Below are positions 32,691 through 35,337 of a stretch of 64,000 nt of DNA, piece by piece. The notes beneath the pieces were generated by a model. It ran no database searches. It worked only from the letters and a program-made list of their open reading frames with translations, and had not been told where the DNA came from. Source of the stretch: Macrocybe gigantea (Eukaryota > Basidiomycota > Agaricomycetes > Agaricales > Callistosporiaceae); NCBI GenBank assembly GCA_011319805.1, contig SJRY01000138.1, positions 186,001 through 250,000 on the forward strand, written 5' to 3'. Each line of letters opens with the position of its first letter. Position 1 is the stretch's first letter. Made by a program: the position numbers and the translations under genes.

Positions 32691-35337
<2,647 letters not shown>

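Follow-up and report, generated by a model that had tools for sequence, protein, structure and literature searches.

The kinase gene on the minus strand of this locus raises the question of whether five nucleotides, CTACG, can form a coding exon of their own between two introns. The window, that is the whole 64-kb stretch of DNA analysed here, contains the kinase-coding part of the gene at 33229..35337 (minus strand, ATG at 35337), as judged by translation and Pfam; several ends are possible, of which 33229 is one. Thirteen introns, all with GT-AG borders, are predicted between 35337 and 33594, and the exons measure 185, 102, 183, 16, 10, 81, 205, 17, 70, 5, 33, 44 and 79 nt, followed by a long last exon from 33594. 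Four exons in this gene are 17 nt or shorter: exon 4 (YIFME, 16 nt, 34690..34705), exon 5 (PME, 10 nt, 34622..34631), exon 8 (RYNTA, 17 nt, 34130..34146), all on the minus strand, and the 5-nt exon. The translation has the features of a MAP kinase, including a kinase domain (Pfam PF00069, Pkinase, 3.4e-64 over nearly the full profile), the TEY activation motif and end-to-end similarity, with an alignment to a solved fungal MPS1 MAPK over residues 1-348 of 349.

A candidate C-terminal tail ending in GIFQL* lies in another reading frame at 32691..33160 (minus strand), perhaps joined through one more intron. The switch into the tail frame, within 33160-33291, occurs without an obvious intron, and either one of seven candidate GT-AG introns or a sequence error may account for it. 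Beyond the tail, an open frame at 31534-32499 on the plus strand converges on the kinase gene; it carries a GKGGVGKST motif and presumably encodes an NBP35/NUBP1-type P-loop ATPase-like protein.

The predicted coding exon 10, CTACG, occupies 33957-33953 on the minus strand, between exon 9 (70 nt, 34010..34079) and exon 11 (33 nt, 33868..33900). The upstream intron (34009-33958, 52 nt, phase 2) reads GTAAGT...TTTTCCAG and the downstream intron (33952-33901, 52 nt, phase 1) reads GTCGGT...TCTCGTAG, both on the minus strand and both of the GT-AG type, so that the order on this strand is ...CTTTTCAAAGGCAAAGA / gtaagt...ttttccag / CTACG / gtcggt...tctcgtag / TCGACCAATTGAACAAAATTTTGGAC... The five letters complete an Asp codon, supply a whole Tyr codon and give the first base of a Val codon (KGK-D-Y-V-DQL). 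The initial annotation, which had proposed the exon, was exact in its coordinates and letters, in both intron lengths (52 and 52 nt) and in the AG before and GT after CTACG. It had also held that the kinase core sequence KGKDYVDQLNK can be rebuilt only with CTACG inserted, and this proved correct among the two-intron GT-AG and one-intron GT/GC-AG models tested.

The two-intron search covered 34079-33868, with GT-AG introns of at least 30 nt and a stop-free translation ending in frame. Exactly one such model yields KGKDYVDQLNK, and the remaining ones were rejected because they do not produce this motif. With one intron there are 121 GT/GC-AG candidates. Stop codons or a wrong end frame exclude all but 21 of them (2 with GT and 19 with GC donors), and none of these 21 gives KGKDYVDQ. 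The best of them removes a 116-nt GC-AG intron, 34016-33901, and reads GKPLFK-VDQLNK, in frame and without GKDY. The predicted spliced junctions are GGCAAAGA-CTACG-TCGACCAATTG with the exon included, GGCAAAGA-TCGACCAATTG with the exon skipped and CTTTTCAAAG-TCGACCAATTG under the GC-AG model. As had been expected, Tyr and Val are lost and the frame shifts when CTACG is left out: the predicted skip gives a shifted peptide and then a stop, predicted retention of the first intron gives KGKE followed by a stop, and predicted retention of the second gives a frameshift that ends at the same stop as the skip.

A microexon is taken here as an internal exon no longer than about 27-30 nt, and at 5 nt between two introns CTACG lies well inside the limit of 30 nt applied to this locus. 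When the 109 nt that span both introns and the exon were dinucleotide-shuffled 100,000 times, a 5-nt exon restoring Tyr-Val, with both introns at least 30 nt long, arose with a frequency of 0.00049. The motif AGYTAYGGT occurs once in the 64-kb window against 1.04 expected; such a motif is thus not rare in itself, and what counts is its place and frame. The reading frame, a paralog in the same genome and the patterns of ortholog annotation together support CTACG as a five-nucleotide coding exon.

Identity of the kinase gene and its paralogs

The gene had initially been labelled MPK1, and this label did not hold. In the genome assembly (G000; 41.2 Mb in 333 contigs) an MPK1/SLT2 ortholog lies elsewhere, at positions 464300-468300 of contig C249 (locus L004), and a maximum-likelihood tree of 40 rows places the two genes apart. 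The window gene falls in a clade of 14 rows (13 relatives, including Tremella and Mrakia) with support of 100/100, and L004 falls in a clade of 12 rows (11 relatives, including Cryptococcus P0218, 426 aa, and Ustilago) with support of 99/95. The L004 DNA matches the window gene in two stretches at 74 and 76% identity; among the matches listed, its protein reaches 95% identity with Agaricomycete proteins and has 93% with P0131, which is named SLT2/MPK1. The own-genome MPK1 locus and the tree thus reject an SLT2/MPK1 identity for the window gene.

In Cryptococcus neoformans the cell-wall-integrity clade is described as containing both Mpk1, of 426 aa, and a longer Mpk2, of 807 aa (PMC11253600). 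The window protein is predicted at 621 aa, with a tentative C-terminal tail, against these 807 and 426 aa. Because of its separate clade and the described Mpk1/Mpk2 pair, the window gene is called Mpk2-like: it is, by its predicted protein, probably a second MAPK of the SLT2/MPK1 cell-wall-integrity clade in Agaricomycotina. The putative likeness to C. neoformans Mpk2, a second MAPK in this clade that is longer than Mpk1 at both ends, is drawn from the published description (PMC11253600).

The predicted structure of the genome's own MPK1 gene provides the strongest support for the CTACG exon. At the corresponding site L004 reads AAAGGCCGAGA / gtaagtcgatgca...tatcgcag / CTACGTCGACCAATTGAACC, with a single intron that is identical in position and phase to the upstream intron (34009-33958) of the window gene. 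After this intron L004 continues unbroken as CTACGTCGACCAATTGAAC, and its next 19 bases (1908-1926) are identical, without interruption, to CTACG+TCGACCAATTGAAC of the window gene. The unbroken reading of CTACGTCGACCAATTGAAC in L004 implies that CTACG is coding and that 33952-33901, which is absent from this paralog, is an additional intron. The site is free of introns in two further MAPK genes of the genome, those on C33 and C233.

The first 13 intron bases (GTAAGTCGATGCA) are identical in the window gene (33997-34009, minus strand) and in L004 (1855-1867), in genes whose matching stretches are otherwise 74-76% identical; chance, constraint or gene conversion may be responsible. A search of the assembly for a second haplotype of the window locus found one copy only. 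Some other kinase loci score identically on two or three different contigs (C64/C249/C250, C63/C235 and C217/C275), which suggests that the assembly includes duplications or portions of both nuclear haplotypes.

Length errors in ortholog predictions

Relatives were assessed through their predicted proteins, from which conservation is judged; a pattern search of viral contigs for ortholog DNA gave 8 matches, with no relative among them. Three protein searches, each represented by the best 120 of its matches (7979, 7984 and 301), yielded 339 proteins. Sorting by BLAST score placed 177 of them nearer the window kinase and 121 nearer MPK1, and the 41 that fitted neither group were left out, as were 80 bacterial kinase loci from the genome-contig search. 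Because gene predictors often fail on tiny exons, an exon shared by relatives should leave a hotspot of length errors at its site. The error rule considered changes of length only and was the same for all sites.

Among the best-listed proteins of the window group, the length at the 5-nt site was changed in 24 of the 120 genome-predicted orthologs that cover it (23 of 143 do not). Control sites in the predictions of the same group, again among the matches listed, gave 3/131 at intron 6, 4/129 at intron 12, 5/137 at intron 13 and 1/137 in an intron-free stretch. In the MPK1 proteins listed, the same site was changed in 0 of 89 (4 of 93 not covered) and the FANY site, which has a single intron, in 4 of 91; the EEL stretch of MPK1 did not serve as a control, being naturally variable in length (28/90, and 5/28 in short-contig proteins). 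Fisher tests against the introns and MPK1 gave P values of 7e-7 to 4e-5, which are too optimistic, as the rows are related and kinship was ignored. Among the matches listed, the site of the 16- and 10-nt exons is also an error hotspot, with a changed length in 31 of 123 covered predictions, and the 17-nt exon site was changed in 11 of 125.

The 24 changed proteins come from 19 genera, including 4 from Suillus and 3 from Schizophyllum. The downstream intron is involved in 17 of them; in the other 7 (P0063, P0073, P0083, P0280, P0293, P0332 and P0333) its involvement is absent or doubtful. The residue before V/I-DQL is other than Tyr in 26 of 124 genome-predicted window-group proteins with the motif and in 1 of 90 MPK1 proteins (a His), both among the matches listed; two of the 26, P0065 and P0068, may be plain substitutions.

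Several of the ortholog errors fit the expected products of skipping, retention or mis-joining. In Psilocybe cyanescens P0316 the sequence KGKDRPAQQDL follows the exact frame of a skip of the 5-nt exon (compare KGKDRPIEQ for the window skip). Blastosporella P0248 and Marasmius P0313 read NTA/IDQL, consistent with a join of the 17-nt exon to |TCGAC, and Termitomyces P0254 reads MEPME/VDQL, which fits the 10-nt exon joined to the same acceptor; these four proteins belong to the 23 rows not covered in the length count. Four Suillus proteins read GRPLFK/VDQL, using the same acceptor |TCGAC as the GC-AG intron model. Infundibulicybe P0255 has KDYGQR, which fits reading past CTACG into an intron starting with GT, and Mycena kentingensis P0336 has KDYGTE...ETVDQL, which fits a read into intron 2, an intron that would there be 45 nt long.

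The affected orthologs that were looked up belong to Gloeophyllales, Boletales, Russulales and Agaricales. From these predicted proteins, the 5-nt exon is probably common to the four orders, and it is probably often missed by gene-prediction software in related fungi; in 96 of the 120 predictions the length is unchanged, and lineages without the exon may be among them. Proteins from short contigs, among the matches listed, showed no change at the 5-nt site (0/26, with 8 of 34 not covered) or in MPK1 (0/28). The contigs that carry them are between 1.4 and 18 kb long, most of them 2-4 kb, and contain open frames of 277-727 codons. These proteins are probably transcript-derived; the 26 unchanged of 26 show length only, as proteins carry no exon borders. 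Since 24 of 120 covered genome-derived orthologs among the matches listed have a changed length at the site, studies of mushroom Mpk2-like kinases based on automatic gene models risk working with broken proteins.

Origin and splicing of the exon

The preferred reading, with a probability of about 0.86, is that CTACG is a genuine, normally included 5-nt exon of the Mpk2-like kinase gene, created when a phase-1 intron was inserted 5 nt past an older phase-2 intron. The older intron would be the one that the MPK1 paralog retains at the same place, and a second spliceosomal intron, inserted in phase 1 five nucleotides downstream, would have cut off CTACG as an exon. That 33952-33901 is a later gain rather than a loss elsewhere is inferred from the paralogs, not from a species tree; insertion is the simplest history, the other possibility being that the MPK1 line lost the intron. 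The idea that the downstream intron was copied from the upstream one is not convincing (ungapped identity 23/52, shuffle mean 17.2, P 0.043).

Because a 3' splice site and a 5' splice site separated by only 5 nt cannot be occupied by splicing factors simultaneously, each 52-nt intron would be recognised as a unit, by intron definition, and the two would be removed one after the other; once either is gone, CTACG would be part of an exon of normal size. Microexons have been proposed to be spliced by intron definition, since factors cannot assemble on both sides, and short introns are said to favour this (PMC8378409); fungal twin introns are likewise described as sequentially removed by intron definition (PMC5639578). 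Intron 1 is probably removed first (about 60:40), as would be expected from its full GTAAGT donor, its pyrimidine-rich TTTTCCAG acceptor and its earlier transcription. Its donor fits GTRAGT at 6/6 positions and that of the downstream intron at 4/6, which is not unusually weak, since 5 of the 13 donors of the gene score 4. Since both skipping and retention would shift the frame and bring an early stop, inclusion of CTACG should be under strong selection.

The same early stops, in which all the predicted skip and retention products end, are what regulation would use. In that case the 5-nt exon, long kept in Agaricomycetes together with the 16-, 10- and 17-nt exons, would be a splicing checkpoint at which skipping or retention yields a truncated kinase or a decay-bound transcript and so sets the level of the Mpk2-like kinase. 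A precedent is the Trichoderma Xlr2 gene, where a microexon is described as regulated by glucose (PMC11121469). The site length is kept in 26 of 26 covered short-contig ortholog proteins, which speaks against regulation, though productive transcripts would be over-represented there, and the proposal is improbable. If it were true, imperfect recognition of a 5-nt exon would set the amount of functional kinase, and the exon would be a basidiomycete counterpart of the regulatory microexons of animals and plants.

Splicing of the single 116-nt GC-AG intron, with CTACG as no exon or as one in some transcripts only, is less probable still. This model is stop-free and in frame, and the GRPLFK/VDQL of the four Suillus proteins is exactly its product, but these are gene predictions, and Suillus P0012 (S. 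ampliporus) keeps the site length. The model would delete four conserved residues and requires a GC donor beside a full GTAAGT donor; the coding status of CTACG in L004 and the site length kept in all 26 covered short-contig proteins also stand against it.

Equally doubtful is the view that the need for so small an exon is only apparent and stems from a sequence or assembly error or from decay of the gene. The C-terminal tail does shift frame near 33290-33160 with no obvious intron there, and the single copy of the locus in the assembly leaves no second allele for comparison. Against error or decay stand the Pkinase match and TEY motif given above, identities of 88% to a Laccaria and 90% to a Hypsizygus protein, the low chance frequency of such an exon (0.0005) and the fact that the breaks of the ortholog predictions fall at the same place. 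Least probable is excision of 34009-33901 as one nested unit (stwintron or recursive splicing) with CTACG only transiently an exon border, since, for all the resemblance of two adjoining short introns needing sequential removal to fungal stwintrons (PMC5639578), removal of the whole 109 nt would lose five coding bases and shift the frame, CTACG lies within the coding sequence of L004, and the five frame-required bases between the introns do not agree with an internal intron set in a donor, acceptor or branch site with no exon between.

If the preferred reading of CTACG as a normally included exon holds, the locus shows how the conserved core of a kinase can acquire a tiny exon through the arrival of a second intron 5 nt away from an old one, and a paralog in the same genome still has the simpler arrangement. 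It would also be a natural test case for how fungi with short introns splice across exons too small for simultaneous binding on both sides.

Tiny exons in other genes

Exons of this size had been placed near the lower limit of splice-site recognition, which is overstated, as exons of 1 nt, 4 bp and 6 bp are in print. Among the titles listed from the open-access literature, none was about a microexon in a basidiomycete MAP kinase. Tiny exons, though rare, are already known, including in fungi, with printed sizes of 1-6 nt, and the CTACG of a mushroom kinase would add one more.

The closest fungal parallel in kind is a 1-nt exon in a Fusarium P450 gene (CYP621A), for which the abstract reports transcript evidence (PMC12940212). 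Like CTACG it is fungal, lies in a conserved motif, was found through the reading frame and is supported by an uninterrupted relative; it differs in having 1 nt instead of 5 and in belonging to an ascomycete P450 with transcript evidence. The same source mentions an 8-nt exon in a Phanerochaete chrysosporium P450, and 6 bp is given as the shortest exon of the P450 genes of that species (PMC1184071). These genes are likewise from an Agaricomycete, with frequent introns of 45-55 bp and exons of 2-10 codons, whereas the exon described here is in another family, a MAP kinase, and its 5 nt are not a multiple of 3. Codon-sized microexons are described in Tuber (PMC4986451).

Plant microexons of at most 15 nt are reported to include 1-nt exons in APC11 and VPS55 and adjacent exons of 5 and 12 nt in a rice gene (PMC8831610). 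They resemble the present case in being conserved, often misannotated and sometimes neighbours within one gene; they differ in coming from plants and in having been identified with RNA-seq, some being verified by RT-PCR. Human genes are described with included exons of 4 bp (MPC1) and 5 bp (KSR1 and TMEM237), of similar size and likewise not multiples of 3 (PMC9929638). The letters of the MPC1 exon, TACG, happen to lie within CTACG; unlike the 52-nt introns on either side of CTACG, the introns around the MPC1 exon are long, and that exon is described as exon-defined (PMC9929638).
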